Shown here piece after piece: positions 7,035 to 29,343 of a stretch of 64,000 bases of DNA (position 1 is its first letter; every line of letters starts with the position of its first letter). The DNA comes from Micromonospora sp. MH99. Its GTDB lineage: Bacteria; Actinomycetota; Actinomycetes; Mycobacteriales; Micromonosporaceae. The translations under genes and the position numbers were made by a program. The DNA lies in the NCBI RefSeq assembly GCF_021442385.1, contig NZ_MUZA01000005.1, positions 110,700-174,699 on the forward strand. Reading direction: 5' to 3'. The notes below the pieces were generated by a model, which worked only from the letters and a program-made list of their open reading frames with translations, was not told the origin of the DNA and searched no databases.

Positions 7035-7039
7035 CCGGT

Positions 7040-15453: not shown

Positions 15454-15455
15454 TT

Positions 15456-15491
15456 GCAGGTCAGCGAGGCTGCGGCCGTCACTTGGCGTTG
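15456..15491. other. attL of the AICE
   Basis: This 36-bp stretch matches 29308-29343 in direct orientation. The last 16 bases, CCGTCACTTGGCGTTG, are identical in both copies. The preceding 20 bases share GCAGGTCAG and CTGCG at the same register, with mismatches between. On the minus strand the core reads AACGCCAAGTGA, the metH end Asn-Ala-Lys-stop. Sequence left of the core should be original chromosome and sequence right of it should be element. Confidence 0.8.
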
Positions 15492-15850
15492 TATTGACGA
15501 ACGACGGGGGCGTAGTCGATCAAAGCGGACGACTAGACTCCTGAGCTGCTGTGACGCCTGGCATTGATAGTCAGCGTTGGGCACTGCGGGTTTCCCTCTG
15601 ACGGCCTAGAAACGGCATGATCTTGGTCCTCGACTGCCCTAGCGGCGAGGTCCGGATCCCTCGCTTGTAAGTTCTGAATGCTCTGTCTCTGAGCGTCCGG
15701 GTGCATCCGTCACCTGGGACAGCCGTACGTCAACGATCAGGTACGGCTGCCCCCGTCATGTCCCGTTGCTGTCGCGAGCCTCCGAACCATCAAGCGCTTT
15801 CGCTCAGGCCAATGGTCACCCGCTGGCTACGCGGGCGCTACCAAAGCTGC
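15492..15850. other. Non-coding left end of the AICE
   Basis: No convincing gene. Sequence just inside attL may carry arm-type integrase sites, but I see no clear repeat set. The one obvious structure is the hairpin at 15720-15749. Base composition is less GC-rich than the flanking chromosome. Confidence 0.4.
15720..15749 (-). terminator. Hairpin downstream of the lipoprotein gene
   Basis: CAGCCGTAC (15720-15728) pairs with GTACGGCTG (15741-15749), a perfect 9-bp stem with a 12-nt loop, about 100 bp after the stop of the leftward lipoprotein gene. A terminator is the simplest reading. It lacks a T-run. Confidence 0.35.
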
Positions 15851-16273
15851 TCACGGGCTTGCGCTTCCACTCGTCGTGGGCTGCAAGCTCGGCGCGTTGA
15901 CCGGGGGCAGGCTGTTTGGCCGGTCCATGCAGCCGTTGATGAACGACAGGCGTCGTCGCTCCTGGAAGTCAACGTCATTGGCGCGGTTGTTGCTGGGTTT
16001 GTTCATGTCGTTCTCAGCGTCCTTGGCCCCGCTGGTGACCCATGAGCTGTCACAGGACGCCTCGTCAACGACGGTCCCAGTCTTCTCCATCGACTTCCGG
16101 CTGGTCTTGCCTTGCTCGTACACGGCGTCAATCGCCTCAGCCCGGTCTTCGAAGCTGTCCCCGCTGTCCACTATGTCGCCAATCGTCGAACATCCGACGA
16201 GAGCCGTCATGAGGGCAGCTGCGGCAAGTCCAGTCACCACGCGTCTCCACATGAGGACGGAGTGTATCGACAT
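15851..16273 (-). CDS. Small predicted lipoprotein (AICE cargo)
   Basis: The 140-residue protein starts MSIHSVLMWRRVV and has a membrane segment ending in a lipobox (MTALVGCS), so the mature N-terminal Cys should be lipidated and anchored outside the membrane. The mature part is charged and helical, with a later Cys (ASCDSSW). No family recognised. It is divergent from the membrane coiled-coil gene over 330 bp. It could be an exclusion or surface function of the element. ATG 16252 is an alternative start. Confidence 0.65.
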   Translation of the reverse strand: MSIHSVLMWRRVVTGLAAAALMTALVGCSTIGDIVDSGDSFEDRAEAIDAVYEQGKTSRKSMEKTGTVVDEASCDSSWVTSGAKDAENDMNKPSNNRANDVDFQERRRLSFINGCMDRPNSLPPVNAPSLQPTTSGSASP

Positions 16274-16400
16274 GACTCTGTCGAGCGCTTCCCCTGATTG
16301 AAGGTCAGTACTGGTGAGCTGACAGGCCAGACCACGGTCCAGACGGCCCGACCACGGCACGAACTCGGGGAGTTGAAGCGGAACATGGAGCCGCTGTCCC

Positions 16401-16465
16401 GCCACCAACGTGAACAGCCGGCGACACCTGCTCACAGGGCGTCTCGGGCTGCCATCGTTGGTGGC
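16401..16465. repeat. 10-bp inverted repeat in the divergent intergenic region
   Basis: GCCACCAACG (16401-16410) and CGTTGGTGGC (16456-16465) are exact inverted copies 45 bp apart in the 330-bp gap (16274-16603) between the lipoprotein and coiled-coil genes. They may be a pair of operator half-sites for looping, or the base of a weak hairpin. No clear promoter consensus is visible in the gap. Confidence 0.35.
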
Positions 16466-16603
16466 TGATTGACGACGTTTGACAGTGTCTTGTGCCCCCT
16501 GTGCGCCCCGACCTTCATGTCAGCATCGCCGCTGACGCCTTCCCGACAGGAGGCCGCCGTTGTCGGGGTGTCGGAGCATCGGCGCAGGAGACATCATGGC
16601 CTA

Positions 16604-17395
16604 ATGCTTCTCGCCCTCATGGCTCCCCCTCCTTCCCCAGCTAGCACCGGTCCCCAGATCACCCCGGGGGACTGGCTCGGTGCAGCAATCGGCCTTGCTT
16701 CATTCCTTGCCACTGCTCTGCTTGCATTCCTGATATATCGGCTACAGAGGCGAGATATTGAGCGAGACAATGCCGAGAACCGACGCGTCGCTATGATAGA
16801 GCAGGAAGCGCAGGAGCGACGCGATGCACAAGAAAAAGCAGAACGCGAGCAGCAAAAGCGCAGGGACGAAGATGCGCAGAGGCGTGCCGAGGATCAGCGG
16901 CGAGCCGATGAAGCACAGCGCAGGGCCGATGAGGAGCAGCGAGAACTTCGGCGCGCTCGGCGGGAGAGACATCAGGCCGACTATCAGCTGGCGGCGAGCG
17001 CACTACACGACCTAGGGAAGGCGTTTGAAATTCCGGCAATGAATGACCCCTATGCGGGCGCATTGCTAACCAAGGGACACATGCAGGCGGCCAAGGTGCC
17101 GGCAGCCAAGGAAGCCCTCCACCAGGTCGCCGCTACAGTTACGACGCTTAAGGAGCCTTTGAAATCCCTGGCCCACCTTGCGGATAAGTTCCTCCACTGC
17201 GCCGTCAGAACAGACGAGGAAATTAAGCAATTACTGTCCCGGCCATCCGAGCAGCAGACCGATAAACCTCAAATTTGGCAGAACGTTTACGCGCAGGAGA
17301 TTTTTCGAGGAATAATGCAGAGGGAGGTCGCGAATCGCGGTGAGGTAATGATACAGGCGGCCCGCAAAGCAATGGAGAAGGAGTGGGGCTCGTGA
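16604..17395 (+). CDS. Membrane-anchored coiled-coil protein (AICE cargo)
   Basis: The 263-residue protein has one membrane helix (WLGAAIGLASFLATALLAFL, about residues 24-44). A long highly charged coiled coil of Arg/Glu/Gln repeats (~50-130) and a C-terminal helical domain follow. There is no enzyme motif. AGGAG 13 bp upstream supports ATG 16604; ATG 16619 is possible. Codons carry noticeably more A/T at third positions than neighbours (many AAA, AAT, GAA), indicating recent acquisition. It is separate from the core AICE genes and may be a membrane-associated effector or defence protein; that is inference only. Confidence 0.7.
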   Translation: MLLALMAPPPSPASTGPQITPGDWLGAAIGLASFLATALLAFLIYRLQRRDIERDNAENRRVAMIEQEAQERRDAQEKAEREQQKRRDEDAQRRAEDQRRADEAQRRADEEQRELRRARRERHQADYQLAASALHDLGKAFEIPAMNDPYAGALLTKGHMQAAKVPAAKEALHQVAATVTTLKEPLKSLAHLADKFLHCAVRTDEEIKQLLSRPSEQQTDKPQIWQNVYAQEIFRGIMQREVANRGEVMIQAARKAMEKEWGS

Positions 17396-17455
17396 TCTTG
17401 GCTCCGCCCAGCGTCATCCCGATGCTCCTATGGATGTCAAGCTGCGTCGACCGTC

Positions 17456-17641
17456 TCACCGGCGGAGCTTGACCCTTCGTCCCGAAGGAACGATCAACGG
17501 CCGTCGAGCTGAGGTTGCACACCCGGTTAGCTCCTCCCAGCGTCCACAGGCGTCCACGGCCGTCCACAGTCGCTCGCCGTCGTCGTCACCCAGATAGCCA
17601 CTCAACAGCTCCGCACCGGCGGTCAGCGCTGCGAGGTCCAT
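17456..17641 (-). CDS. Possible small protein, 61 aa
   Basis: An open frame encodes MDLAALTAGAELLSGYLG, an acidic stretch, then a basic tail (SGRRVKLRR). Composition is protein-like, but no ribosome site precedes the ATG and no family is recognised. It lies in the 365-bp space between the coiled-coil gene and the 57-aa gene. It may equally be a remnant. The overlapping plus strand carries three spaced CGTCCAC repeats. Confidence 0.3.
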   Translation of the reverse strand: MDLAALTAGAELLSGYLGDDDGERLWTAVDACGRWEELTGCATSARRPLIVPSGRRVKLRR

Positions 17642-17642
17642 T

Positions 17643-17672
17643 TTGTGGGGTCAGTGGCGAGTCGGTTACTAT
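17643..17672 (+). promoter_or_regulatory. Candidate promoter of the 57-aa gene
   Basis: A -35-like TTGTGG (17643-17648) and a -10 TACTAT (17667-17672) are separated by 18 bp, a good match to the main actinomycete housekeeping promoter. The predicted transcript would begin near 17679 and have an ~80-nt leader. Confidence 0.45.
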
Positions 17673-17708
17673 GGGCGACGGCGCAATCTGCGGCTGACCT
17701 TCCGGACG

Positions 17709-17743
17709 GTTGGGGGCTAGGGGAGGACCCTAGCGCACAACCC
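17709..17743 (+). promoter_or_regulatory. Leader hairpin before the 57-aa gene
   Basis: GGTTG (17709-17713) pairs with CAACC (17739-17743), and CTAGGG (17718-17723) with CCCTAG (17729-17734), around a GAGGA loop with internal bulges. It ends a few bases before the ribosome site AAGGAGG (17750-17756), so it could affect initiation or mRNA stability. Riboswitch-type recognition is not claimed. Confidence 0.4.
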
Positions 17744-17760
17744 CACGGAAGGAGGTTTTC

Positions 17761-17934
17761 ATGATCGCGCCTGAGGAAGACCAGCGGTCGGGCTCCCTTG
17801 TGGTCCTGGCCCTGGTCTGCGAGGTGGTCGCCAACTTTAAGGAGGCGACCGGCAAGGACGAGTTCAATCTTTCTGAACTCGTCCTGCTCGTGCTGGTACT
17901 TGTCGTCAGCTTTGCCGGCGGTGACAAGAACTAG
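17761..17934 (+). CDS. 57-aa protein with hydrophobic C-terminal segment (AICE cargo)
   Basis: The ORF begins MIAPEEDQRSGSLVVLAL and ends in a hydrophobic run (SELVLLVLVLVVSFAG) followed by GDKN. A very strong AAGGAGG sits 5 bases before the ATG. The gene has its own candidate promoter, a structured leader and a downstream hairpin, so it looks like an independent mini-cistron. The tail could insert in the membrane. No family known to me. Possibilities include a small membrane regulator, an entry-exclusion protein or a toxin-like peptide; none is supported beyond the hydrophobicity. Confidence 0.6.
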   Translation: MIAPEEDQRSGSLVVLALVCEVVANFKEATGKDEFNLSELVLLVLVLVVSFAGGDKN

Positions 17935-17947
17935 CGATCCACCTGTG

Positions 17948-17981
17948 GTCGGGGAGTTCGTGAACCTGCGGGCTCCCCGAC
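17948..17981 (+). terminator. Hairpin after the 57-aa gene
   Basis: GTCGGGGAG (17948-17956) and CTCCCCGAC (17973-17981) form a perfect 9-bp stem with a 16-nt loop, 13 bp after the stop codon. It is a likely terminator of the mini-cistron. Confidence 0.5.
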
Positions 17982-18560
17982 TGCTGTCTGAACTTGATAG
18001 ATGTAACCACTACTAAGACAACACAATAACACGGATGAGGTTACGCCATCCCGTCTGCCGCCGACCCGCCCTCCTGGGGAGCGGTCCGCCGACCGGTCCG
18101 CCACGTCAAGACGGCCTTGACGCACGTTCGGACGCTGGCGGGCCGGTTGGTGGTCTGCTCGGCTCGCCCGGGTCGTCGGCTGGCGGGATGGCCCTGTGCA
18201 ACCACCCACGGACCGCGACGCGCCGACGAACCCCCGACCATCTCGGAGTCGTTGCGCCCCCGCCGGAGGCGCGGTAACCGCGACCAGCTCGCCGCCGCGA
18301 CCGCCGCGCGGACCGGCGTGCCCTTCCCTGCGCCGCGCCGATCGGGCGCGGTGCCCGGCCGGCTGCCGGCCCACCAACATCAACCACCCTCGGCACCACC
18401 GTCAGCGGCGGCCCCCGGGCTTCCCGCTCTCCGCGCCAGCCGCCGGGCGTTCTGCGTGGCCGGAGTCGGAGCGCCAGCGGAGCGACGGACGCGCGCCCAG
18501 GCGGCGGCGCGTGCGGCCCGTCTCGGGCCGCCTTGAAGACGTACAGAAACTTTGAACCAT
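17982..18560. other. Gene-free GC-rich stretch inside the AICE
   Basis: After an A/T-rich patch (17990-18040) the sequence becomes extremely GC-rich. Open frames exist in several phases on both strands, but all read as Arg/Pro/Ala-rich low-complexity protein with no ribosome sites or domain-like segments. I see no gene. It may be decayed sequence. Confidence 0.4.
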
Positions 18561-18576
18561 ATCGACGGCAGCCGGC
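18561..18576. repeat. Left 16-bp direct repeat flanking the nested element
   Basis: ATCGACGGCAGCCGGC is repeated exactly at 19601-19616. The two copies directly abut the inverted-repeat element between them, as a target duplication or an excision site would. Confidence 0.7.
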
Positions 18577-18588
18577 TGCCCGGTCTGG

Positions 18589-18631
18589 GGACCTGCGTGA
18601 CACGTCGGTATCAGGACCTACGTGACACTCC
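18589..18631. repeat. Left terminal inverted repeat with two internal modules
   Basis: The modules GGACCTGCGTGACAC (18589-18603) and GGACCTACGTGACAC (18614-18628) occur at a 25-bp period. The 43-bp block is inverted at 19546-19589 with a few mismatches and one single-base gap. Confidence 0.7.
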
Positions 18632-18800
18632 GGTCAGTGCTGACGCACACGAGCCGCTCTCGGTTAGGCGTTAGCGCGTCAGGAAGCGGCACAACTGCCG
18701 CACGGCGGAGTCAGATGATTACCCAGCTCGATCATCCGTCTCATGAGCAATGGGACATCGGTAGGAGAGTCGGACGCACAGCTGCCAGCCTGCTAAGTGG

Positions 18801-19454
18801 CTACGCCACGGGCAGCCCGAGGTCGACCAGGACCTTGACGAGTTGAGCGTCGGGTGCCTCGCCATCAGATCTCGGCTCGTCCGCTTGCTGCGGAAGTCGA
18901 AGACTCTCCGGTCGACCCGAATAGCTCCACGCCGGCTTCACCGAGGGGACCCGCTTCCGGCTGTGCTGTGCAGCCTCCTCGCATGCGGCGATCTCAGCTT
19001 CTCGCTGGTCCGTCAACCAAGGCGGCAGCGCTGGCTCAGCTGGCAGCAGGTCCAGCAATGCGGTCCGCGGATCGTTGAGCCGTCGATGAACGACGCAACC
19101 GCGCAGCCACAGCAGCGCCGCTCGGTCGTGCTTGCCAGGGAGCCAGAGGCCGATGGCCAGATCGATGGCATGGACAGCATCCCGGGCCTTACCGCTGAGG
19201 AGGGCGGAGGCGACGTAGATGAGCCAAGGCTCGATGTGGCTGCCTCCTCCGGATCCGACCCAGCCCTTCGCCCAGCTGTGGGCGCCGCGCCAGTCACCGG
19301 CCTGAAGACAAGCTACGGCTTGTTCGCGGAACTCTGATGCGGCTGGCGGCGTTGCTGCCTGCGGCTGGCGTGACACCTGCTCATTATCCCTCGGCGAAAA
19401 GGACTCTTGCCCCGGCGTCCAGACCCAGCCCGCCCATGAGCTCGTGCACTCCAC
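18801..19454 (-). CDS. TPR-like hypothetical protein carried by the nested element
   Basis: The 217-residue protein has helical pairs resembling tetratricopeptide repeats (FREQAVACLQAGDWRGAHSW, AVHAIDLAIGLWLPGKHDRA, then LLWLRGCVVHRRL). A disordered Ser/Pro region and a short C-terminal helix follow. No signal or membrane segment and no transposase motif. The start is uncertain: GTG 19454 lacks a ribosome site and the first ~45 residues look unstructured. It is the only coding frame inside the inverted repeats, so it is passenger cargo. Confidence 0.5.
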   Translation of the reverse strand: MECTSSWAGWVWTPGQESFSPRDNEQVSRQPQAATPPAASEFREQAVACLQAGDWRGAHSWAKGWVGSGGGSHIEPWLIYVASALLSGKARDAVHAIDLAIGLWLPGKHDRAALLWLRGCVVHRRLNDPRTALLDLLPAEPALPPWLTDQREAEIAACEEAAQHSRKRVPSVKPAWSYSGRPESLRLPQQADEPRSDGEAPDAQLVKVLVDLGLPVA

Positions 19455-19545
19455 CCGATCCGAACCTGGTCCGTGTGCGGCAGCCCGCCGCGAACCTTAC
19501 CGGCCCCACGACCGCCGGCCGATCCCGAGCGCAGATCATCTAGCC

Positions 19546-19589
19546 GGATGTGTCACTCAGGTCCTGAGACCGATGTGTCACGTACGTCC
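19546..19589. repeat. Right terminal inverted repeat with two internal modules
   Basis: GTGTCACTCAGGTCC (19550-19564) and GTGTCACGTACGTCC (19575-19589) mirror the left-end modules at the same 25-bp period. Confidence 0.7.
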
Positions 19590-19600
19590 TGAGACTCGAC

Positions 19601-19616
19601 ATCGACGGCAGCCGGC
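19601..19616. repeat. Right 16-bp direct repeat flanking the nested element
   Basis: Exact copy of 18561-18576, two bases before the stop codon of the leftward cupin gene at 19619. The insertion is therefore immediately downstream of the cupin gene. Confidence 0.7.
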
Positions 19617-19618
19617 CG

Positions 19619-20032
19619 CTAGATCGTCTCCGCCATCTCATACGGGTGCGTGTCGGCTGGGTCGTACGGCCGGTTGGCCAGTTCCACGGCCTGTGAATGC
19701 TCCAACGCGTAGTAGACGTGCGCACACCTCGGCTGCACCGTCACCAGGTCCCCCGGCTCAAGCGTCATCGTCGCTCGCTCACCAGAGTCCAGGTCGTGGT
19801 ACACCGCCCGGACTCGTCCGCTGATCAGATACAGCGTCTCTGTCTTGTGGGCGTGGTAGTGGTTGCCGCGAGGCTTCGTGGCGTCTGGCTGGAACTCCAG
19901 GTAGGCGAGGAACTGGTAGCTGTCACCGTTGACCACCTGGGCCAGCTCTCCGGCCGGGGACTGGATTCGTCCGCCTCCAGCGGGGATCGGTGGCGTCGTC
20001 ACTGGAAGCCGCCGTAGCTGCACCTTGTCCAC
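19619..20032 (-). CDS. Cupin domain protein (AICE cargo)
   Basis: The 137-residue single-domain cupin has motif 1 near GNHYHAHKTETLYLISGRVR (His, His, Glu metal-type ligands) and motif 2 near EPGDLVTVQPRCAHVYYAL. The fold is used by sugar-nucleotide epimerases, isomerases and binding proteins; which applies here is not clear. A weak GTG start at 20032 is used. It is convergent with the nested element and lies 62 bp downstream of the HTH regulator on the same strand. Confidence 0.75.
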   Translation of the reverse strand: MDKVQLRRLPVTTPPIPAGGGRIQSPAGELAQVVNGDSYQFLAYLEFQPDATKPRGNHYHAHKTETLYLISGRVRAVYHDLDSGERATMTLEPGDLVTVQPRCAHVYYALEHSQAVELANRPYDPADTHPYEMAETI

Positions 20033-20094
20033 GCCCTGATGGTAGGCGGTCGACCCTCGGTCACCCCGTCAAGAGAGCCCCACGGTCGGTCGAG

Positions 20095-21012
20095 TCAGGC
20101 TGTTAGCTCCTTGGCCAAGTGGTCCAGGTCCACGTCATCGGAGCCTGCCCACAGTTGCTCAACTGCTGCGAGGTACTTGCGGATCAGGGGTGTCGGCTCG
20201 TCCGGGTCGAACTCGTACTCGTAGACGGGCGAATCGGCCGCGTCGACCAGCGGCAGGTAATGGATGAGGCGCAGCCACCCGTCGACCAACAGGATGTTGA
20301 GGCTCGGCGGCCCGGGGTAGGTCCGGGCCTGCACCTGCTCGGCCGCGAACCGGTGCTGCACGGCTCGTGATCGATGGCGGGCGCAGGCGTAAAGGACATC
20401 GTCGATCTCGCCCGACTGTCGGATGCTTGGGCAAAGGCGCCGGGTGAGTTCACGCTCCTTCATCAGCGGTCCCTCGGGGTCCGAGACGACAACCCGGAGG
20501 GTGGCCCCTTGAATGACTGCATCACGTACGGCTGACTGGTACTGGGAGACCATCGCGTTGTAGCCGGTATGCGCTGCGAAGAAGATGCTGCGTGCCGCTC
20601 TAATGCGCTGTGCAACAGATCGGTTGTCCTCCTCGGTCAGGTCTAGATGGATTCTCAGTCCCTGTGCCGTCAACCCCTCGTCGGCCGCCGTCTCCGCAGC
20701 GCTCGACGTAACGGCGGAGTCATTCACCTCTGGTCCCCACGGCTCGAAAAGCTGCTCGGCCGACCACTCCGGGAACATCGCCTCCAATACCCGGCAGTGA
20801 TCCGGGTACGGCATTTTTTTCACGCTGCCAGACAGCCAGCGGTGTAGCTGGGCCCTGCTCGGCCACCGCCCGACTAGCCTCCGGTCGACCGTGCCGGCCG
20901 CTCGGTCGTACTCGTGGCAGAACGTCCTGTAGGTCTGCCAGTGCCGCTGCTGGATCAGCACTTTTAACCGTGTCTGCTCGCCCGTCGCAGGCTCAGCCCC
21001 AGTGACCTTCAT
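20095..21012 (-). CDS. AICE HTH regulator with C-terminal sensor-like domain
   Basis: The 305-residue protein starts MKVTGAEPATGEQTRLKVLI. A Xre-like DNA-binding region around SRAQLHRWLSGSVKKMPYPD is followed by a C-terminal domain (ARSIFFAAHTGYNAMVSQYQ, then RVVVSDPEG) found in regulators next to actinomycete transfer modules. It is divergent from the 106-aa gene and probably represses or activates the transfer/replication operon through the intergenic repeats. Base composition is lower in GC than flanking chromosomal genes. Confidence 0.7.
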   Translation of the reverse strand: MKVTGAEPATGEQTRLKVLIQQRHWQTYRTFCHEYDRAAGTVDRRLVGRWPSRAQLHRWLSGSVKKMPYPDHCRVLEAMFPEWSAEQLFEPWGPEVNDSAVTSSAAETAADEGLTAQGLRIHLDLTEEDNRSVAQRIRAARSIFFAAHTGYNAMVSQYQSAVRDAVIQGATLRVVVSDPEGPLMKERELTRRLCPSIRQSGEIDDVLYACARHRSRAVQHRFAAEQVQARTYPGPPSLNILLVDGWLRLIHYLPLVDAADSPVYEYEFDPDEPTPLIRKYLAAVEQLWAGSDDVDLDHLAKELTA

Positions 21013-21077
21013 GCATGGACGTTAGCACAGATGCGACAGAGATGAGACAGCACGAGAATCAGAAGTCTTAGATGTGA

Positions 21078-21096
21078 TACCGATGCCGTACCGATG
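21078..21096. promoter_or_regulatory. Direct repeat TACCGATG x2 in the regulator/transfer-operon intergenic region
   Basis: TACCGATG occurs at 21078-21085 and 21089-21096, an 11-bp period and so one helical turn, in the 166-bp gap between the divergent regulator and the AICE operon. This spacing suits a dimeric operator. A further pair, GCGACAGA and GATGAGACAG, lies nearer the regulator. Confidence 0.45.
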
Positions 21097-21178
21097 AAAC
21101 ACCCTCACGAGTGATGCTGACTTCAGCAAGAGAGCAGTCGTCCAAAGGGGACGCGCTCATGACCCTCGGAGGTATCTC

Positions 21179-21499
21179 GTGAAGTTGTACGTGGACACCC
21201 AGAGCAAGCAGGTCCAGGTGACGAAGGACCCGGAGCCGAAGAACGACCAGAACGGCAATCAGCGGTCGGAGAAGAACACTGGCCGGCTCATGTGGTCGAC
21301 CCAGGTCTTCGTTCTCGACGAGACTGGCGGCGAGATCATCACCATCACCACGGCGGGTGAGAAGCCGAGCGTGACGGTGGGACAGCTCGTCGCTGTCGAG
21401 CAGTTGGAGGCCATTCCGTGGGCGACCAACGGGCGCAACGGCGTCGCGTTCCGTGCGATCACGCTGAAGCCGAAGGCTGGTAACTCGGCGGCCAAGTAG
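21179..21499 (+). CDS. Conserved AICE protein upstream of the FtsK-type translocase
   Basis: The 106-residue protein begins MKLYVDTQSKQVQVTKDPEP and contains WSTQVFVLDETGGEIITITT, a pattern I recall from proteins just upstream of FtsK/TraSA genes in many Streptomyces and Micromonospora elements. It looks like a small beta-barrel, perhaps DNA-binding. GGAGG (21168-21172) precedes GTG 21179. A 7-codon ATG frame (21159) ends on this GTG and may couple translation. Confidence 0.75.
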   Translation: MKLYVDTQSKQVQVTKDPEPKNDQNGNQRSEKNTGRLMWSTQVFVLDETGGEIITITTAGEKPSVTVGQLVAVEQLEAIPWATNGRNGVAFRAITLKPKAGNSAAK

Positions 21500-21594
21500 G
21501 TCCCTCGCTCACCGCGCTGTGTGAGCCCTGGTGTCTGACGCACGAAAGCGGCCTAACGGTCCGCTGATCTGAGATCCACAGGTCCGGGAGTGGT

Positions 21595-21677
21595 TCCGAC
21601 TCCTATATTCCCGGCCCGTCACCACCAGCGGTGGTGGCATCCCCGCAAGAGCTGGCGCGGGGTCGGTCCGACTCCTA
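21595..21677. repeat. Repeats and palindrome before the transfer genes; candidate cis-acting transfer locus
   Basis: TCCGACTCCTA is present at 21595-21605 and 21667-21677 in direct orientation, 72 bp apart. Between them CACCACC (21620-21626) and GGTGGTG (21630-21636) form a tight palindrome around AGC. The 239-bp gap has no gene. FtsK-type Tra proteins of actinomycete plasmids act on repeated short motifs close to tra, so this is a reasonable place for that site. Confidence 0.35.
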
Positions 21678-21738
21678 CATCTGCCGACCCCGTGCCCAGC
21701 AACTCATCCAACCCAACTCGCGATTGGGAGGACTCGTC

Positions 21739-22662
21739 GTGTCCAAGTCTAGCCCCCGCCGCCCCTTCGGGCGGAACACCGCAACGGTGACGGTCATCGA
21801 GGCCAAGGTCCACCGTTCCTCCGCCCGTAACGCCCGGTTGGCGTTCGTCCTCACGGCGGTCATCGTCGGCCTGCTGTCGGCCGTGGTGGCCGCTTCCTCC
21901 ATTCACCCGATCCTCGCCGTGTTCGTCGGCGCGCTCATCGGCGTACCGACCGGCGGCCTCGCCTGGGTGCTGGTGCGGATCTGGCCGGTGATCCGGCTGC
22001 TGTGGTGGTGGAGCACCGAGATCGTGCTCTCGGTCCTGCTGCTCACCTTCTGGGTCCAGCTCGCCAACCACACCCCAACCGTGGTGACCCTTACCGTGGT
22101 CGCCCTGGTCGTCGGCGTCCCCGCCGCCATCCCCGCCGCCCGCCGGCAGGCCATCGCCTGGACCTGGTGCTTGATCGTCAGGCACCGGCTGCGCGTGTGC
22201 TTCGCGCAGTTCATCATCGCCAACCAGTCCGGTTCGCTGCCGCTGATCCTGTGGGCACGCCCCACCCCGGTCGGTGAGCGGGTCTGGGTCTACCTGCGCC
22301 CCGGCCTGTCCATGGCCGACCTGGAAGGCCGCCTCGACAAGATCGCCGTCACCTGCCACGCCTCAACCGCCCTGGTCGAACGCGCCTCCGACGGTAACGC
22401 CGCCTACCTGCGGTTCGACATCAAACGCCGCGAAGTCCTCACCGCCCAGGTGAACTCGCCGCTGGTCGACGTCATCAACCCGGACACCCCCACCGCCGAC
22501 CGGCCCACGCCGGTCATCCCCACGGCGCTGGACCTGCCCGACGTCGACGCACCCACCATCACCCTGCCGGCCCAGCCCAAGAAGCCGGCCACCACCGCCA
22601 ACGGCAGCAAGCCCGCGGCTTCCTCGGCAACCGACGCCGAAGACGTCTCCGACTGGATCTAA
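21739..22662 (+). CDS. Membrane and sensor half of a split FtsK/TraSA-type transfer protein
   Basis: The 307-residue protein starts at GTG 21739 behind GGGAGGA. About four membrane helices (AFVLTAVIVGLLSAVVAAS, ILAVFVGALIGVPTGGLAWV, VLSVLLLTFWVQL, VVTLTVVALVVGVPAAIP) are followed by a cytoplasmic domain (GERVWVYLRPGLSMADLEGR). That domain matches the region preceding the ATPase in TraSA/FtsK-like proteins. It ends in a Pro/Thr tail without a Walker motif. The ATPase is the next gene, 86 bp downstream, so the anchor and motor are separate polypeptides. Confidence 0.75.
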   Translation: MSKSSPRRPFGRNTATVTVIEAKVHRSSARNARLAFVLTAVIVGLLSAVVAASSIHPILAVFVGALIGVPTGGLAWVLVRIWPVIRLLWWWSTEIVLSVLLLTFWVQLANHTPTVVTLTVVALVVGVPAAIPAARRQAIAWTWCLIVRHRLRVCFAQFIIANQSGSLPLILWARPTPVGERVWVYLRPGLSMADLEGRLDKIAVTCHASTALVERASDGNAAYLRFDIKRREVLTAQVNSPLVDVINPDTPTADRPTPVIPTALDLPDVDAPTITLPAQPKKPATTANGSKPAASSATDAEDVSDWI

Positions 22663-22748
22663 CCCACCCCGAACACCTGGACGCGGGGAGCCGCTTACGG
22701 CTCGTTCGTGTGGCTTCCCGCGCCCACTACCGCCCAAGGAGGGCACCC

Positions 22749-23618
22749 ATGACCACCACGACACCCGCCGCCGTTGGCGCGGTTCCGGTGGGGCCTGGCC
22801 TGTCGATGTTCGACCCCATCTTCGTCGGCATCGACGAGTTCGGTCAGCCCGTCTACATCACCCTCGCCTACCGCAACCTCCTCGCCGGAGGCGAACCCGG
22901 CGGAGGCAAAAGCGGCCTCTTGAACTGCATCGCCGCACACGCCGCCCTCGCCATCGACAGCCGCCTCGTGCTGCTCGACGGCAAGCTCGTCGAACTCGGC
23001 CAATGGGAAGACTGCGCCGACGCCTTCATCGGCCCCGACATCACCGCCGCGCTGACCGTCCTGCGACGGCTCCAGCAGGTGATGAACAACCGCTACGCCT
23101 GGCTCCGCGCGCACGGGCGCCGCAAGCTCACCGCCGCCGACAACCTGTCGGTCATCACCGTCCTGGTCGACGAGATCGCGTTCTACTCCGCCACCGTCGG
23201 CAGCAAGCAGGAACAGGAAGAGTTCGTGGCGCTCCTGCGTGACCTGGTCGCCCGGGGCCGCGCCGCCGGCATCCCCGTCGTCGCCGCCACCCAACGGCCG
23301 TCCTTCGACATCATCCCCACGTCGCTGCGGGACCTGTTCGGCTACCGGGCCGCGTTCCGCTGCACCACCCCGAACAGCTCCAACATCGTCCTTGGTCACG
23401 GATGGGCCGAGCAGGGCTACTCCGCTACCGACATCTCACCCAGCAACCAGGGCGCGGCCTACCTCATCGCCGAAGGCGGCATACCCCGCCGCATCAAAGT
23501 CGCCTACCTCTCCGACGCCCAGATCGCGGGCATCGCGGACTACGCCGCCTGGATCCGCCGACCCGGCGGACTCGCCATCTCGGCCGGCTCCCCCTCCGGG
23601 TGGGAGGCCGTGGCATGA
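22749..23618 (+). CDS. FtsK/SpoIIIE-type DNA translocase ATPase domain (TraSA-like)
   Basis: The 289-residue soluble ATPase has Walker A in GEPGGGKSGLLN (about residues 50-60) and Walker B in VITVLVDEIAFYS. Sensor-type segments VARGRAAGIPVVAATQRPSF and RDLFGYRAAFRC follow. AAGGAGGG precedes ATG 22749. It would pump double-stranded DNA between mycelial cells, as in pSAM2. It lacks the membrane anchor, which the preceding gene provides. No gamma-like FtsK DNA-recognition helix is obvious. Its stop overlaps the next ATG (ATGA). Confidence 0.88.
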   Translation: MTTTTPAAVGAVPVGPGLSMFDPIFVGIDEFGQPVYITLAYRNLLAGGEPGGGKSGLLNCIAAHAALAIDSRLVLLDGKLVELGQWEDCADAFIGPDITAALTVLRRLQQVMNNRYAWLRAHGRRKLTAADNLSVITVLVDEIAFYSATVGSKQEQEEFVALLRDLVARGRAAGIPVVAATQRPSFDIIPTSLRDLFGYRAAFRCTTPNSSNIVLGHGWAEQGYSATDISPSNQGAAYLIAEGGIPRRIKVAYLSDAQIAGIADYAAWIRRPGGLAISAGSPSGWEAVA

Positions 23619-23824
23619 CCACCCGCGAACGCGCCTACGCCAAGGCCAACAACCAGCGCGCCGCCCAGTTCACCGAACTGTGGATCGTCGGGCGTCCCGA
23701 GGACATCGCGGTGATGGTTCGCGCCGCCTCGGCCAGCGGCCGACTCGTCTACCTGTCCCCGCCGACCCCGATGGGCGGCGACGACACCCGCCACCGCCGC
23801 TACCTGCGGCTACGCACTCACTAA
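23615..23824 (+). CDS. Small conserved AICE protein, 69 aa
   Basis: The ATG overlaps the translocase stop (ATGA). The protein, starting MTTRERAYAKANNQ, contains FTELWIVGRPEDIAVMVRAA and a basic end (DTRHRRYLRLRTH). It looks like a small alpha/beta protein of unknown role, kept directly after the translocase gene. Confidence 0.6.
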   Translation: MTTRERAYAKANNQRAAQFTELWIVGRPEDIAVMVRAASASGRLVYLSPPTPMGGDDTRHRRYLRLRTH

Positions 23825-23909
23825 TCGGCCGACAGGACCGGGATTTCGCCTGGCAGCAACTGCCGGTCCTGCCGACCTCCACCAACAACCTCGAAAGGAC
23901 GTGGTTGCC

Positions 23910-24350
23910 ATGAAGGCTACCCACAACCCACCCACCACCGTTGAGGTCACACCTGCTGACCTGCTGCGGATGGCCGCCCTCTACCTGCGCCGGCACGGCT
24001 GGCACCAGGGCACCTACTACGCCAAGAACCCCGACACCCTCACCCCGCCGGCCTGCGCCGCCGGGGCCATCGGCATCGCCTGCGCCGGACACCGCGTCGA
24101 GCACTTCTCCCAGCTCGACCCCGACGCCCTCGCCGACTACCTGACCGCCCTGGGCGTGTTCGTCGACTACCTCGACACCACCGCCCCGGTCTTCTTCATC
24201 GACGAGGACGGCTACCTGCTCGACGAGCACACCTCTCCCTACTCGTGGAACGACGACCCGACCCGCACCGCCGAGCAGGTCATCACCGCCCTCCAGGCGG
24301 CTGCCACCGAGTGGGACTCCCTCCGCGCCGCCGGAGGTGAGAACGCATGA
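23910..24350 (+). CDS. DUF6197-like protein
   Basis: The 146-residue protein has a helical start LLRMAALYLRRHGWHQGTYY, then PPACAAGAIGIACAG, and a C-terminal WNDDPTRTAEQVITALQAAA. This is the pattern I associate with the actinobacterial DUF6197 family, of unknown function and common on mobile elements. ATG 23910 has AAAGGA at 10-bp spacing; GTG 23901 is the alternative. It is translationally coupled to the next gene by ATGA. Confidence 0.65.
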   Translation: MKATHNPPTTVEVTPADLLRMAALYLRRHGWHQGTYYAKNPDTLTPPACAAGAIGIACAGHRVEHFSQLDPDALADYLTALGVFVDYLDTTAPVFFIDEDGYLLDEHTSPYSWNDDPTRTAEQVITALQAAATEWDSLRAAGGENA

Positions 24351-24649
24351 ACACCGTCAAGAAGCCCTTGACGCCCAACTTGCCCCGACAGCGACGTCGG
24401 GACGTCGTCGAGAACGACGCCTTCGGCGCGTTCGCGCGGCGCATCATCCGCGCCCACGGCCGCCGCGTCGCCACCGGCGACGTCGAAGCACTCCGCGACC
24501 TCATCGCCCTCTCATCGGTCATCGACGAGGCGATCGGGGAAGCCGTGATCGGCCTTCGGGCTTTCGGCTACTCCTGGGCCGAGATCGGCTCCCGCCTCGG
24601 CATCTCCCGCCAAGCCGCCCAACAGCGCTGGGGCGGTGACAAGCCATGA
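24347..24649 (+). CDS. Small helix-turn-helix protein
   Basis: The 100-residue protein ends in a sigma-region-4-like helix-turn-helix (YSWAEIGSRLGISRQAAQQR). The N-terminus is basic and helical (FGAFARRIIRAHGRRVATGD). It starts at an ATGA overlap with the previous stop and may regulate the element or act in partition. Part of the compact AICE operon. Confidence 0.7.
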   Translation: MNTVKKPLTPNLPRQRRRDVVENDAFGAFARRIIRAHGRRVATGDVEALRDLIALSSVIDEAIGEAVIGLRAFGYSWAEIGSRLGISRQAAQQRWGGDKP

Positions 24650-25050
24650 CCAACCTGCGCAGCGTCGATTTGGACAACCTGGCCGAGCGCACCGGCATCC
24701 GGGTCGAGTTCTACGACCCCCTCGGCACCCGCTACGGGTTCCCCACCTTCCCCTACCACTGCGCACCCACCGGCCTGGCCACCCTGCGGCAACTCCGCGC
24801 CGCCGGCCTCCGACCTGGAGGGCATGACCCGGTCGCGCAGATCTATTGGCGGCACCACTCCAACCGGCGGGTCGCCTACCTCTACCGCCTTGACCTCGCC
24901 GCACCGAAGCGCACCGCCACGCCCGCCCAGCGGGAGGCCATCGCGAAAGCCCTGCTCGCCCGCCGGACCTGCCGGCACTGCGGACAGGTGAAGCCCTACT
25001 ACATCCCCCGCCGCTACGGCTGCTGCCTCGACTGCCACGGAGGCCACTAA
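24646..25050 (+). CDS. RRQRL-motif zinc-binding protein
   Basis: The 134-residue protein contains ATLRQLRAAGLRPGGHDPVA, the motif naming the RRQRL family seen in streptomycete mobile elements (here RQLRAAGL). A C-terminal zinc knot follows (CRHCG, then CCLDC). Stop and start overlap both neighbours (ATGA before, TAATG after). The family is frequent in AICEs but its role is unknown. Confidence 0.75.
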   Translation: MTNLRSVDLDNLAERTGIRVEFYDPLGTRYGFPTFPYHCAPTGLATLRQLRAAGLRPGGHDPVAQIYWRHHSNRRVAYLYRLDLAAPKRTATPAQREAIAKALLARRTCRHCGQVKPYYIPRRYGCCLDCHGGH

Positions 25051-25763
25051 TGCCCGCTAACGCTCCGGCCAGCGCCGGCACCCGTCTGGAGGGCCTGGTC
25101 CTGGTCCTCATCCTCATCGTCGTCGGCGGCTCCGCCGGGGCCGCCTCGTTCACCCACGTCCACGACTGGACCATGGCCAACAGCCCCGAGAACACCCCGG
25201 GATGGTTCGGCTGGGCCAACGCCGTCATCTCCGAACTCGTCCCCATCGCCGCCCTACTCACCATCCGCCGACGCCGCCGGACCGGCGCTCCCATCGGCTA
25301 CCCGATGGTCCTGCTCATCGCCGCCGCCGGCCTCTCCCTCGCCGCGCAACTCGCCGTTGCCAAGCCCGGCCCGTCCGGGTGGCTCCTGTCCGCCGTTCCC
25401 GCGCTGGCGTTCATGGCCCTGGTCAAACTCGTCCTCGCCCCCGCAAAGGCGGGAACCACCGCCGCCGCACCGACCCCCGCGCCGGTCGAGCCGATCCGGG
25501 TCCAGGTGGCCGAGCAGGTCACCACCGAACCCCCGGCCGCCATCACCCACGCGCCGGCCGTCACGCCGGAACCCGTCACCGTGCCGGCCTCGGAGCCGGT
25601 CGACGTCCCCACCCACCTGCTGCCCACCGCCCGTTTCGCGGCCGTGCAGCACGAACAGGCCACCGGCCACCCCATCACGCCGGACGAACTGGCCGACCGG
25701 CTCGACATCACCCCGGCCGTCGCCGGACAACTCCTGACCACCATCAGCGGCGGTATCCGATGA
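25050..25763 (+). CDS. DUF2637 membrane protein, SpdB-like spread protein
   Basis: The 237-residue protein has four membrane helices in the first ~135 residues (VLVLILIVVGGSAGAASFTH, the region SELVPIAALLTI, PMVLLIAAAGLSLAAQLAV, WLLSAVPALAFMALVKLVLA). These fit the DUF2637/Spd family. A long Pro/Ala/Thr/Val cytoplasmic part and a short C-terminal helix-turn-helix-like segment (PDELADRLDITPAVAG) complete it. Spd proteins are linked to spread of transferred DNA along the mycelium and pock formation. It starts on TAATG. Confidence 0.78.
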   Translation: MPANAPASAGTRLEGLVLVLILIVVGGSAGAASFTHVHDWTMANSPENTPGWFGWANAVISELVPIAALLTIRRRRRTGAPIGYPMVLLIAAAGLSLAAQLAVAKPGPSGWLLSAVPALAFMALVKLVLAPAKAGTTAAAPTPAPVEPIRVQVAEQVTTEPPAAITHAPAVTPEPVTVPASEPVDVPTHLLPTARFAAVQHEQATGHPITPDELADRLDITPAVAGQLLTTISGGIR

Positions 25764-26026
25764 CCATCGTCTTGGTCGATATCGAGCAGGTCACCCACAC
25801 CTGCCCCGCCTACCCCGGCCCGCACCCCTTCGACACTCGCCGGACCGTCGTCGACGTCATCCCCGGCGGACCCTGCCGGGCACCGGTCACCATCCGCTGC
25901 GGCGACACCACCGTCACAATTCCGTGCCGCCGGCACGAACCGGCCAAGCGCCAATGCGGCGCCTGCCGAGTCATCGTCACCGAACACACCATCACCACCC
26001 GCCACCTCGACGAGGTCGGCGGCTGA
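25760..26026 (+). CDS. Small Cys-rich AICE protein, 88 aa
   Basis: The protein starts MTIVLVDIEQVTHTCPAYPG and has two further Cys clusters (TIRCGDTTVTIPCRRH, then KRQCGACRVIV), suggesting zinc binding. It overlaps the previous stop as ATGA and the next ATG as TGATG, so it is translated in series with repSA. Function unknown. Confidence 0.6.
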   Translation: MTIVLVDIEQVTHTCPAYPGPHPFDTRRTVVDVIPGGPCRAPVTIRCGDTTVTIPCRRHEPAKRQCGACRVIVTEHTITTRHLDEVGG

Positions 26027-27816
26027 TGGCCTCGACGCTGGACCTCACACCCCGAGCCTCGGCCCGGGGTGTGGGCTCGAACGCCGACACCATCGCGCCC
26101 GTCTACGACTACACCGCCGAAGGTTCCGCCTTTCACCGCGCCACTCAGCCGGACTACTTCGGGTGGCTGGAACACGTCCGCGCTGCCGCCGGCTGCACCC
26201 GCCCTATCCGCCTCGCCGGCAGCCTCTACACCGTCGAGCAGGGCACCGGACGGGTCCTGGACCAGCGGCACACCGACGCCATGCCCGACGCCGCGATCTA
26301 CACCGCCTGCGGCAACCGCCGGTCAAGGGTCTGCCCCTCGTGCGCGCAGACCTACCAACGCGACGCCTTCCAACTGCTTCGCGCCGGACTCGTCGGCGGC
26401 AAGGGCATCCCCGACACGGTTGCCTCGCACCCCGCCGTGTTCGCCACGTTCACCGCACCATCGTTCGGGACCGTGCACGCACGGGTGGTCAAGCGCCACA
26501 CCTGCCGCAACCGCCGCCGCTGCGACTGCCGCGCCGAACCCTGCCACGCCCGCCGCGACACCGGCCTCTGCCCCCACGGTCGTCCCGCCGTGTGCTGGGC
26601 ACGCCACGAAGCCACAGACACCGCACTCGGGCATCCCCTGTGCCTGGACTGCTACGACCACGACCACCAGGTCGTCTGGAACATCTTCTCCGGCGAACTG
26701 TGGCACCGCACCAAACAAGCCGCGGAACGATGGCTCGCCACACTCGCCCGCCGCCGAGGCATTCCCCGCGTCGAGATAGTCACCGCCTCCGGCAACACCC
26801 GCAAGATCCCGCCGGTCCGGCTCTCACCCGGCAAGGTCGCCGAACTCCAAGCACGCGGAGCGGTCCACTTCCACGCCATTGCCCGCCTCGACGGCGTCGA
26901 CGGCCAGGACCCCAACGCCGTCGTACCCCCACCCGCCGGATTCGGCGTCGACGAGCTGGTCGACACGCTCCGGCACGCCGCCCGACACGTCACCTTCCAC
27001 ACCCCCACCCACCCGGACCGGCCCGAGGGCTGGCCGATCACCTGGGGCGAGCAGGTCGACCTGGAACCCATCGCCGCCGACGGCACAGGCGAGGTCACTG
27101 ACGGGATGGTCGCGGGTTACCTTGCCAAGTACGCCACCAAGAGCACCGAGGCCACCGGGCACACCTCAACCCGCCTGACCGCCGACACCATCGGCGACTA
27201 CGCCAACCCCGACGGCGACCACACCGCCCGCCTCATCGACGCCTGCTGGCGCATCGGCCGACCCACCAGCACACCCATACCCCTGTCTGAGCGGCCCCGG
27301 GAACCACGGCCACGGCCCGGCTTCGTCGACCGCTGGGAATGCCCCGACTGCGGGACCCGCACCCGCTACCCCGCCTGCCCCGTCTGCATCGCACACCGTC
27401 AAGCCACCCTTGACGCCCAACCGGCCAGCAGACCACAAGCGACCAATCCCTACGCCCGGCTACGTCGATGGGCTCACATGCTCGGCTACGGCGGCCACTT
27501 CCTCACCAAAGGCCGCCGCTACTCAGTGACCTTCCAGTTCCTGCGCGACACCCGCGTTGCCTTCCGCCGCCACGAGCACCAGGACCATGCCGACGAGCAG
27601 CCCGGCACCCTCCGCGCCGTCGACCACCTCGACGACGACACCACGCTCGTGGTCGGCACCCTCACCTTCGCCGGCGTCGGCTGGCACACATCAGGTGACG
27701 CCCTGCTCGCCAACACCGCCGCCGCCCTCGCCCGCGAACGACGAACCACCGGCCGCGAAGAACTCGCCCACCAACTCAGCACCATCCCCGCCGACACCGT
27801 GCCGGCTGCTGCCTGA
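26026..27816 (+). CDS. repSA: RepSA-type rolling-circle replication initiator
   Basis: The 596-residue protein starts at ATG 26026. It has Cys clusters near residue 95 (CGNRRSRVCPSCAQTY), a second Cys-rich region (CRNRRRCDCRAEPC) and the HUH metal motif in AVHFHAIARLDG. The catalytic Tyr lies in GYLAKYATKS, and a zinc ribbon follows (CPDCGTRTRYPACPVC). These match pSAM2 RepSA, which nicks the element's origin and starts rolling-circle replication of the excised circle. The double-strand origin may lie within repSA, as in pSAM2, but I cannot identify it. It is the last large gene before xis and int. Confidence 0.92.
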   Translation: MASTLDLTPRASARGVGSNADTIAPVYDYTAEGSAFHRATQPDYFGWLEHVRAAAGCTRPIRLAGSLYTVEQGTGRVLDQRHTDAMPDAAIYTACGNRRSRVCPSCAQTYQRDAFQLLRAGLVGGKGIPDTVASHPAVFATFTAPSFGTVHARVVKRHTCRNRRRCDCRAEPCHARRDTGLCPHGRPAVCWARHEATDTALGHPLCLDCYDHDHQVVWNIFSGELWHRTKQAAERWLATLARRRGIPRVEIVTASGNTRKIPPVRLSPGKVAELQARGAVHFHAIARLDGVDGQDPNAVVPPPAGFGVDELVDTLRHAARHVTFHTPTHPDRPEGWPITWGEQVDLEPIAADGTGEVTDGMVAGYLAKYATKSTEATGHTSTRLTADTIGDYANPDGDHTARLIDACWRIGRPTSTPIPLSERPREPRPRPGFVDRWECPDCGTRTRYPACPVCIAHRQATLDAQPASRPQATNPYARLRRWAHMLGYGGHFLTKGRRYSVTFQFLRDTRVAFRRHEHQDHADEQPGTLRAVDHLDDDTTLVVGTLTFAGVGWHTSGDALLANTAAALARERRTTGREELAHQLSTIPADTVPAAA

Positions 27817-27838
27817 CACCTCGCCTACGGGAGACGAC

Positions 27839-28030
27839 ATGACCACCGCGCAACCGCTCAAGCTTTGGACCGTCGAAGACGTGTCGGCATACCTCGGCGT
27901 CCCGATCCAGACTCTCTACACCTGGCGCAAGCGCCGCATCGGTCCGCCCGCCGGCCGCGTTGGTCGGCATCTGCGCTACGACCCTGACGTGGTGCGGGCG
28001 TGGTTCGCCGACCAGTCCAAGGCGGCCTGA
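27839..28030 (+). CDS. xis: Excisionase (Xis), MerR-like HTH
   Basis: The 63-residue protein (TVEDVSAYLGVPIQTLYTWR, then GRHLRYDPDVVRAWF) is a winged HTH_17-type excisionase. Xis bends DNA at the attachment sites and directs Int towards excision. It lies 22 bp after repSA and 1 bp before int, the conserved AICE order. Confidence 0.9.
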   Translation: MTTAQPLKLWTVEDVSAYLGVPIQTLYTWRKRRIGPPAGRVGRHLRYDPDVVRAWFADQSKAA

Positions 28031-28031
28031 G

Positions 28032-29273
28032 ATGGCTCACATCGTCGACCGCTGGTACAAGACGGTTGTCGGCCCGAACGGCAAGTCCCGCCAGGAGCCA
28101 AGGCCGGAGTGCGGACAGGGGATGCGCTATCGCGTCCGGTACCTCGCTCCGGACGGCAAGGAGAAGTCGCACTCGTTCCCCGACAAGAAGAAGCGCGAGG
28201 CACAGGCGTTCCTTGCCAACGTCCAGGCCGACATCCTCAAGGGCACCTACGTCGACCCCGACGCCGGCCGCACCACCTTCAAGCAGTACGCCGACGAATG
28301 GCTTGCCGCCGCGACGACTGACCTACTGACTCGCGACCGGCTTGAGTACGAACTCCGGCTGCACGTGCATCCGGTGCTCGGGCATAGGCCGATCGCGTCG
28401 ATCCAGCCGGCGACGATCCGAGCATGGGCGCGTGGGATGCAGGAGAAGGGACTGTCCGCCGGTTACCGCCGCGTTCTGTTCAGCGACGTGTCGATGATTC
28501 TAAACGCCGCTGTAGACGACAAGAAGATCGTCAGCAATCCGTTTGCCGCCAAGAGCATCCAAAGACCCCGGCATGTCCCCACTAAGGTCCAGCCGTGGTT
28601 AGTCGACAGGCTCACCGCGTTCCGCGCGAAACTGCCGGACCGCTACCGAGTCACCGTCGACCTGGGCGCAGGTTGCGGACTGCGGCAAGGAGAGATTTTC
28701 GGCGCAAGCCCTGAAGACCTGGACGCGACCCGGCCAATCTTGCGAGTCGTCCGTCAGATCAAGCTCGTGCGCGGCGTCCTCATCTTCGCCCCGCCCAAGG
28801 GCGGCAAGACGCGGGAGGTTCCCCTCCCAGCCTCCGTAGCTCGCCGCCTGGGCGACCACGCCCAGCGGTACCCGCCTGTAGAGGTCACCTTGCCATGGGG
28901 CTCCCCCACTGGCGACCCCATGACCGTCATGCTCTACCTGACGACTGCTGACGGCTTGCCGCTCAGCCGTTCGAAATTCAACCCCGGCGTCTGGAAGCCC
29001 GCAATCCGTGCCACGGGCGTTCCCGACGACCGCCACAACGGCATGCACGTTTTGCGACACACCTATGCCTCGGTGCTTCTGGACGCCGGAGAGAGCATCA
29101 AGGCCCTGTCGATGTACCTCGGTCACGCTGACCCGGGATTCACCCTGCGGATCTACACGCACCTTCTGCCGACCAGCGAGGACCGTACGCGCCGAGCCAT
29201 CGATGCGGCCTTCGGTGAGGACCCATCAGATGCGGACGGCCCGGATGCCGTTGACGGCCTGGAGACGGCATGA
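28032..29273 (+). CDS. int: Tyrosine site-specific integrase
   Basis: The 413-residue phage-type integrase has an N-terminal arm-binding region, a core-binding helical domain (TFKQYADEWLAAATTDLLTR) and a catalytic domain. Catalytic residues are visible: Arg in GCGLRQGEIFG, Lys in PPKGGKTREV, His and Arg in HVLRHTYAS, His in YLGHADPGF, and Tyr in LRIYTHLLP. Start ATG 28032 is one base after the xis stop. It should recombine the CCGTCACTTGGCGTTG core in the metH 3' end. The gene is intact. Confidence 0.93.
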   Translation: MAHIVDRWYKTVVGPNGKSRQEPRPECGQGMRYRVRYLAPDGKEKSHSFPDKKKREAQAFLANVQADILKGTYVDPDAGRTTFKQYADEWLAAATTDLLTRDRLEYELRLHVHPVLGHRPIASIQPATIRAWARGMQEKGLSAGYRRVLFSDVSMILNAAVDDKKIVSNPFAAKSIQRPRHVPTKVQPWLVDRLTAFRAKLPDRYRVTVDLGAGCGLRQGEIFGASPEDLDATRPILRVVRQIKLVRGVLIFAPPKGGKTREVPLPASVARRLGDHAQRYPPVEVTLPWGSPTGDPMTVMLYLTTADGLPLSRSKFNPGVWKPAIRATGVPDDRHNGMHVLRHTYASVLLDAGESIKALSMYLGHADPGFTLRIYTHLLPTSEDRTRRAIDAAFGEDPSDADGPDAVDGLETA

Positions 29274-29303
29274 TCATGGTTCAGTGGCCCTCTAGGCGAC
29301 CTG

Positions 29304-29329
29304 GGGCGCAGGTCAGGGCACCTGCGCCC
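29304..29329. terminator. Hairpin at the metH/int junction
   Basis: GGGCGCAGGT (29304-29313) and ACCTGCGCCC (29320-29329) form a perfect 10-bp stem with loop CAGGGC, two bases from the metH stop and 30 bp from the int stop. It can terminate both converging genes. By the att logic it is element DNA and has replaced the chromosomal terminator of metH. Confidence 0.6.
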
Positions 29330-29343
29330 GTCACTTGGCGTTG
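29308..29343. other. attR of the AICE, overlapping the metH stop codon
   Basis: Direct copy of 15456-15491. The 16-bp identical core (29328-29343) covers the metH end read on the minus strand as C AAC GCC AAG TGA CGG. metH is complete on the right-hand side. Confidence 0.8.

Follow-up and report, generated by a model that had tools for sequence, protein, structure and literature searches.

The 64,000-nucleotide stretch of Micromonospora sp. MH99 analysed here (contig NZ_MUZA01000005.1, positions 110,700 to 174,699; hereafter the window) carries an actinomycete integrative and conjugative element (AICE) that ends in the 3′ end of metH, the gene for methionine synthase. Taking all observations together, we consider it highly probable that the element was inserted at the end of metH by its own integrase, that the gene entered follows the lineage of the integrase gene (int), and that a sister lineage came to use a different gene, encoding an Smr-domain protein (smr), through a change in the short overlap at which the strands would be exchanged. 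A first reading of the sequence, referred to as the original prediction, had already proposed such an element at metH, and its claims are taken up below where the results bear on them.

The element is delimited by two exact copies of a 16-bp core, CCGTCACTTGGCGTTG, which enclose 13,852 bp and are the only copies on both strands of the 6,859,410 bases of this genome (reversed-pattern control: 0). The originally proposed 36-bp direct repeats proved to be only 86% identical, whereas their 16-bp core, to which exact identity is limited, was confirmed. The G+C content is 66.8% in the enclosed DNA and 71.3–71.5% on both flanks. The right core begins 54 nt past the end of int and on the minus strand spells the end of metH, Asn-Ala-Lys-stop (C-terminus ...YFNAK*). 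Since the repeat contains these codons, the metH reading runs to an unchanged end; the right attachment site (attR) supplies the full gene end and MetH is intact, just as had been claimed for the chromosomal attachment site (attB). The same three residues, NAK, terminate 117 of the 118 metH copies of the genus (that of the window included), and the remaining copy ends with NAR. Apart from a direct repeat that is at one end the restored end of a gene, the enclosed DNA contains a RepSA-type replication initiator, an FtsK/SpoIIIE-type transfer protein, and an integrase gene with an xis-like gene beside the attachment site. By the sequence features tested, it is an AICE whose mobility is predicted, and the description as a complete pSAM2-type element bracketed by repeats, with these four genes between unique cores, holds. 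The tRNA attB of the usual AICE type is missing, and no tRNA gene is present anywhere in the 64-kb window.

Some match to int was found in 297 of 300 family genomes, and 14 genomes, which span three genus groups (G177 belonging to that of the window), encode a full-length integrase with at least 65% identity. Ten of these closest integrases adjoin the stop codon of metH, four adjoin that of smr, and none adjoins a tRNA gene. The expectation that int homologues always abut metH was therefore not borne out, neither for these four nor for the more distant integrases, which lie at other genes. Both cores were located in 12 of the 14 elements, namely in all ten at metH and in two of the four at smr. 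The spread across species foreseen in the original prediction is supported. Seven of the metH elements are delimited by exact repeats of 13–22 bp and three by a near match (1 mismatch in 13); they span 12.2–16.8 kb, except for a degenerate element of 3.6 kb in G241.

A phylogenetic tree was calculated for 97 of 105 integrases, eight having been left out because of stops or frameshifts in the aligned stretch. A target could be assigned to 67 of the 97 (by the downstream peptide or core within at most 1.6 kb, or in the case of yajQ by its attachment-site repeat), and the other 30 were not counted in the label-change test. The seven labels (metH, smr, yajQ, glnA, gpm, murA-like, and CAP) require 6 changes on the tree, which is the minimum, as compared with a mean of 41.1 after shuffling. 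In a careful tree of 30 of the 97 rows, the smr integrases form one clade (support 100/99) inside the metH group, and forcing the metH integrases into one clade worsened the fit by 19.9 log units (p-AU 0.029, from an approximately unbiased test that was picked after the tree had been seen). The other genes of the elements tell a different story: the yajQ element L156 shares 86–97% identity with the window's element in nine backbone proteins and 57% in the integrase, while the smr elements are 79–82% identical to it in the integrase and 40–45% in RepSA. Judged from these comparisons, the gene entered follows the integrase lineage, and genes for replication and transfer are exchanged between elements.

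How a lineage may move to a new gene is suggested by the cores themselves. The attB sequence is ACTT-GGCGTTG-AAGT for metH and ACTT-CCAGCGG-AAGT for smr, and on the element side TATTGA stands right of the core in four metH elements (those of the window, G233, G177, and G281) and in both delimited smr elements. We predict that the integrase binds to a pair of weak half-sites, ACTT ... AAGT in attB and ACTT ... TATT in the attachment site of the window's element (attP), and the 7-bp overlap between them, GGCGTTG, would need to match the chromosome. Insertion is then likely to have occurred by recombination between the attP core and the matching 3′ end of metH, catalyzed by the tyrosine integrase; that the element excises and transfers, that its arms are bound, and where precisely the crossover falls are inferred. 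Because the attP half-sites are much alike and the 7 bp between them differ, the site was likely switched via the overlap: the sister lineage would have moved from metH to smr with its half-sites kept and its overlap changed to CCAGCGG, and the integrase likely accepts a new 7-bp overlap if the half-sites stay. The pattern ACTTN7AAGT occurs at 17 places in the genome, the metH and smr ends among them (the reversed pattern, counted 57 times, is not a like-for-like control). Alternatively, smr may have been reached through a changed or exchanged core-binding part of the integrase and not through the overlap alone. Such a change would fit with the exchange of integrase genes between backbones and with the 18–20% of residues at which the smr integrases differ from that of the window, but over the whole alignment the smr integrases fall within the metH group and the TATTGA motif just described is kept, so we hold this explanation to be rather unlikely.

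Further out from the cores, the hexamer GACGGC recurs at both ends. It is present 105–120 nt right of the left core in all of 22 delimited elements (a set that excludes the degenerate 3.6-kb G241 element and elements without a left core), mostly near 107 or 118 nt and frequently doubled at a spacing of 11 bp. At the other end, where int terminates, one to three copies precede the right core by 40–96 nt. Its density per kb amounts to 7.7 and 13.6 in the two arms versus 1.09 inside the elements, with the reservation that the chance estimate for the repeats was made after the fact and counts related elements as independent. In the window, the hexamer is found at 15600 and at 29235, 29253, and 29264. 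These repeats are predicted to be arm sites, bound by the integrase on both sides of attP. A comparable arrangement is seen in NZ_CP107792.1 (L283), an 18.4-kb circular Streptomyces plasmid record that encodes a family integrase (48% identity) and looks like a free AICE: at its junction (18200–260) a pmt-like coding sequence end stands beside paired GACGGC copies at 168 and 179, int is about 2 kb away, and the ends of the record repeat each other for about 65 bp.

Neighborhoods of metH without an element were identified in two relatives by gene-order comparison. This was used in place of a search with joined flanks, in which no match listed for 121 genus genomes extended over the junction. The left flank (window 5211–12888 in G205 and 3910–12888 in G187) is matched in four blocks each with 88–94% identity in the same order and then continues on to metH; both lack the element and have one core copy each (at most one mismatch allowed). 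As the last few kb ahead of metH differ from the window in both genomes, they present a neighborhood without the element rather than a letter-exact scar, and the empty site that had been expected in relatives was thus recovered without its exact flanks. Window positions 12889–15475 are absent from the otherwise colinear G205 and G187; the DNA ahead of metH appears hypervariable, and the 2.7 kb left of the left attachment site (attL) are met only as scattered pieces, in 41 genomes. Element-free relatives carrying both repeats, the case named beforehand as contradicting insertion, were not seen: G205 and G187 have a single core, and G280, which has two, shows a 50-bp match directly at the metH end together with an int tail and the second core 2.4 kb off, so that we take it for an occupied site that has decayed.

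The window itself also appears to bear traces of an earlier occupant. Positions 15442–15491 are 92% identical over 50 bp to the metH-adjacent stretch of G280 (L159), and the 20 bp of the 36-bp repeat that lie outside the core look like the int-proximal arm left by an older element, which likely occupied this metH site before the present one did. A survey of metH ends in 118 of the 121 genus genomes (three without a metH end match were left out) revealed 8 with a full integrase of the same family, 2 with a full distant one (35–38% identity), 32 with an int-like fragment within 400 nt, 5 with a tail only, and 71 with none. Some of the 32 fragments comprise only 15 to 25 amino acids and may be due to chance, two are near-full integrases (37% identity) about 340 nt from metH, and the 71 trace-free ends yielded one int-like hit elsewhere in the 0.8–14 kb examined at each. 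Full-length integrases with 35–38% identity to that of the window stand beside metH at L120 (G153) and L239 (G134). It could be argued that new elements recombine with the attachment sites of earlier ones and that plain metH is now rarely targeted, given that fragments or tails of int, but no full copy, are present at 37 of the 118 metH ends, that the left core of the window follows a G280-like arm, and that int-derived and arm-like pieces lie left of attL in G233. However, 71 of the 118 ends are without a trace at this sensitivity and the core is identical in remnant and plain metH, which means that both routes use the metH codons; we therefore regard such a route as unlikely. An inherited island beside metH, with repeats due to chance, is extremely improbable: cores of 12–16 bp can indeed arise by chance in long searches, but only two copies exist in 6.86 Mb, the same core is found at both element ends in 10 genomes of three genus groups, the arm repeats keep a near-fixed distance, and none of the element-free relatives examined has both cores around unrelated DNA.

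Together with the post hoc choice of the approximately unbiased test, several observations weigh against our preferred interpretation, insertion at metH by an integrase whose lineage and overlap decide the site. G281, and G253 in its left copy, have ATTT as the left half-site; six of the ten metH elements have CTGG, GCTG, CAAT, or CACT instead of TATT; and the glnA, CAP, murA-like, and gpm cores do not display the two half-sites together, so that the half-site reading applies to metH and smr only. The left core was not found in two of the four smr elements, one of which is situated at the start of its contig. We found no empty site whose flanks are exactly those of the window, the 2.6 kb left of its core not being shared by G205 or G187. 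The distant integrases beside metH suggest that another lineage may use this gene too. Finally, the elements compiled in PMC9513070 show no link between integrase sequence and site in that paper's own set (this and the following statements on published work refer to the available parts of the papers).

Beyond metH and smr, the relatives collected (229, narrowed to the best 80) revealed integrases upstream of further conserved genes, encoding a CAP-domain protein, type I glutamine synthetase (glnA), phosphoglyceromutase (gpm), and a murA-like protein; yajQ, by contrast, stands at the opposite end of its elements. When exact repeats of at least 14 bp were sought within up to 10 kb at 74 loci, the CAP group yielded left ends at only 4 loci, and longer stretches were therefore examined. 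Repeats that hold the 3′ end of a coding sequence are present at both ends in the 4 CAP loci and in three of three yajQ elements; the first 9 longer stretches gave both ends for gpm (2/2), glnA (1/3), and murA-like (1/2, 11 bp only), and three of nine further gpm loci followed. A credible left end was seen in 6 of 12 further stretches (three at pmt, two at rnpB, one near a thiamine pyrophosphate (TPP) riboswitch) and in the other 6 none. The end of pmt, for protein mannosyltransferase (identified by Pfam in one element and by sequence similarity in the other two), lies inside repeats of 62–88 bp in three elements. The RNase P RNA gene rnpB (RF00010) occurs in three of four stretches of one Micromonosporaceae clade of related integrases, and its 3′ end is overlapped by a 65-bp repeat in L292 (6217–6281 versus rnpB 5833–6245, int strand) and a 30-bp repeat in L293 (4603–4632 versus rnpB 4214–4631, int strand). 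The neighbors icd, nusG, and MBOAT were not counted as targets; none of the long stretches at icd and MBOAT showed both ends. ARAGORN, applied to 111 int loci (six genomes twice) from 200 nt before to 1500 nt after the int end as far as this DNA was available, with the far element end covered in a minority of loci, detected a single tRNA gene, 1.47 kb away in L039. Integrases next to tRNA genes, the other contradicting case, thus come down to none of the 14 closest and this one instance. The family thus avoids tRNA genes where examined, yet its rnpB sites imply that it is not confined to protein genes. As a tentative generalization, which we put forward as possible rather than probable, one AICE integrase family with a fixed GACGGC arm code (about 107 and 118 nt from the core) would have colonized at least nine conserved non-tRNA gene 3′ ends, metH, glnA, gpm, yajQ, smr, pmt, and the RNase P RNA gene included, by swapping the 7-bp overlap between near-constant half-sites and freely exchanging replication and transfer genes. 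Two further loci are worth recording. L286 has a 13-bp core and arm repeats (about 9331 and 18711, int strand) at a site near a TPP riboswitch and not at the 3′ end of a coding sequence. L155 (C65:74500–94400) is a second AICE in the MH99 genome, located at the yajQ 3′ end, with a similar backbone, an integrase with 57% identity, and an 18-bp repeat.

The vast majority of AICEs with tyrosine integrases use tRNA 3′ ends, the pSLS subfamily being excepted (PMC3218068), in contrast to the metH site reported here. Among 51 AICE insertion sites, 36 are in tRNA genes, 14 in protein-coding genes, rlmN among them, and 1 is intergenic (PMC9513070). The integrase group tied to a protein-coding attB that the original prediction foresaw does exist; attB sites of this kind, however, were already in print. 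Both the pSLS subfamily and the coding-sequence insertions resemble our element, compared by description only, in lying outside tRNA genes, and the available parts of PMC3218068 and PMC9513070 do not name metH, smr, glnA, gpm, or rnpB as sites. The absence of an integrase–site correlation in PMC9513070 differs from the family studied here, in which the target follows the clade. A closer parallel is provided by streptococcal integrative and conjugative elements in the 3′ ends of housekeeping genes (rplL, guaA, rpsI, lysS), whose integrases mostly group by site and whose direct repeats are likewise coding-sequence 3′ ends, with other conjugation machinery, in another phylum, and at other genes (PMC4701971). 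Neither methionine nor glnA occurs in the available main text of PMC12884075, metH is not named as attB in any title or abstract found in the open-license literature, and rnpB is not mentioned among the literature matches listed. What is new is the metH site, the predicted arm code, and the proposed site switch. With pSAM2-type AICEs our element shares RepSA, an FtsK-type Tra, a small helix-turn-helix gene followed by int at one end, a similar size, and an attB that is a restored gene 3′ end. A search of plasmids (best 25 of 121 records) included NC_006910.1 (11,188 bases, Micromonospora rosaria), which we take to be pMR2. Its size fits PMC3364876, and the element, from the same genus, is of the tyrosine-integrase type, with an integrase 26% identical to that of the window. 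The tRNA-Pro AICE pACPL has pSAM2-like arm repeats, GTCACCCAGTTAGT (PMC3364876); the repeats found here are GACGGC.

The integrase family likely illustrates the way in which such elements move from one docking site to another. The nested metH/smr pair, whose arm repeats are the same and whose half-sites are similar while the overlaps differ, offers a concrete test of integrase site change, and the arm repeats would help to locate the far end of an element where direct repeats are short. Conservation of the metH end within the genus also makes the integrase a candidate for a neutral docking tool in actinomycetes.

Table 1. Features of the AICE and its insertion site (window coordinates).
Feature	Position	Strand	Remarks
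Probable int-proximal arm remnant of an older element	15442..15475	+	Left of attL
attL core CCGTCACTTGGCGTTG	15476..15491	+	Half-site ACTT 15481-15484, predicted overlap GGCGTTG 15485-15491, then TATT
Predicted P′ arm-type repeat GACGGCCTAGAAACGGC	15600..15616	+	108 nt right of core
Cargo open reading frame (ORF), 308 aa	16469..17395	+	MAP17 match under curated cut-off
Cargo cupin-domain protein, 137 aa	19619..20032	-	PF07883
Cargo ORF, 305 aa	20095..21012	-	No family match
Conserved backbone ORF, 106 aa	21179..21499	+	
Conserved backbone ORF, 343 aa	21631..22662	+	No family match
FtsK/SpoIIIE-type DNA translocase, likely transfer protein (Tra)	22710..23618	+	PF01580 E 3.7e-11, 43.3 bits, cut-off 24
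DUF6197 protein	23901..24350	+	PF19698
RRQRL-motif zinc-binding protein	24646..25050	+	NF041638
RepSA-type replication initiator	25924..27816	+	PF20199 E 1.3e-140
xis-like small helix-turn-helix protein	27839..28030	+	HTH_17 E 6.2e-12
int, tyrosine recombinase, 413 aa	28032..29273	+	From ATG at 28032; PF00589 E 5.6e-14
Predicted P arm-type repeat GACGGCCTGGAGACGGC	29253..29269	+	Inside int 3′ end, codes DGLETA
attR core	29328..29343	+	Half-site ACTT 29333-29336, predicted overlap GGCGTTG 29337-29343
attR half-site AAGT	29344-29347		Inside metH
metH, methionine synthase, intact, 1171 aa	29331..32846	-	TIGR02082 1448.7 bits, cut-off 1010.85

Several gene assignments can be complemented. The putative Tra protein also matches FtsK and plasmid TraB models, and the replication initiator the NCBIfam RepSA model, in each case under the cut-off. 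A PADLOC search gave no match in 9 proteins. The left part of the element holds the cargo, largely ORFs of unknown kind. The xis-like gene stands just before int, and its product may serve as excisionase; among solved structures, the integrase is closest in sequence to tyrosine recombinases, for example 6emy (E 2.9e-10).

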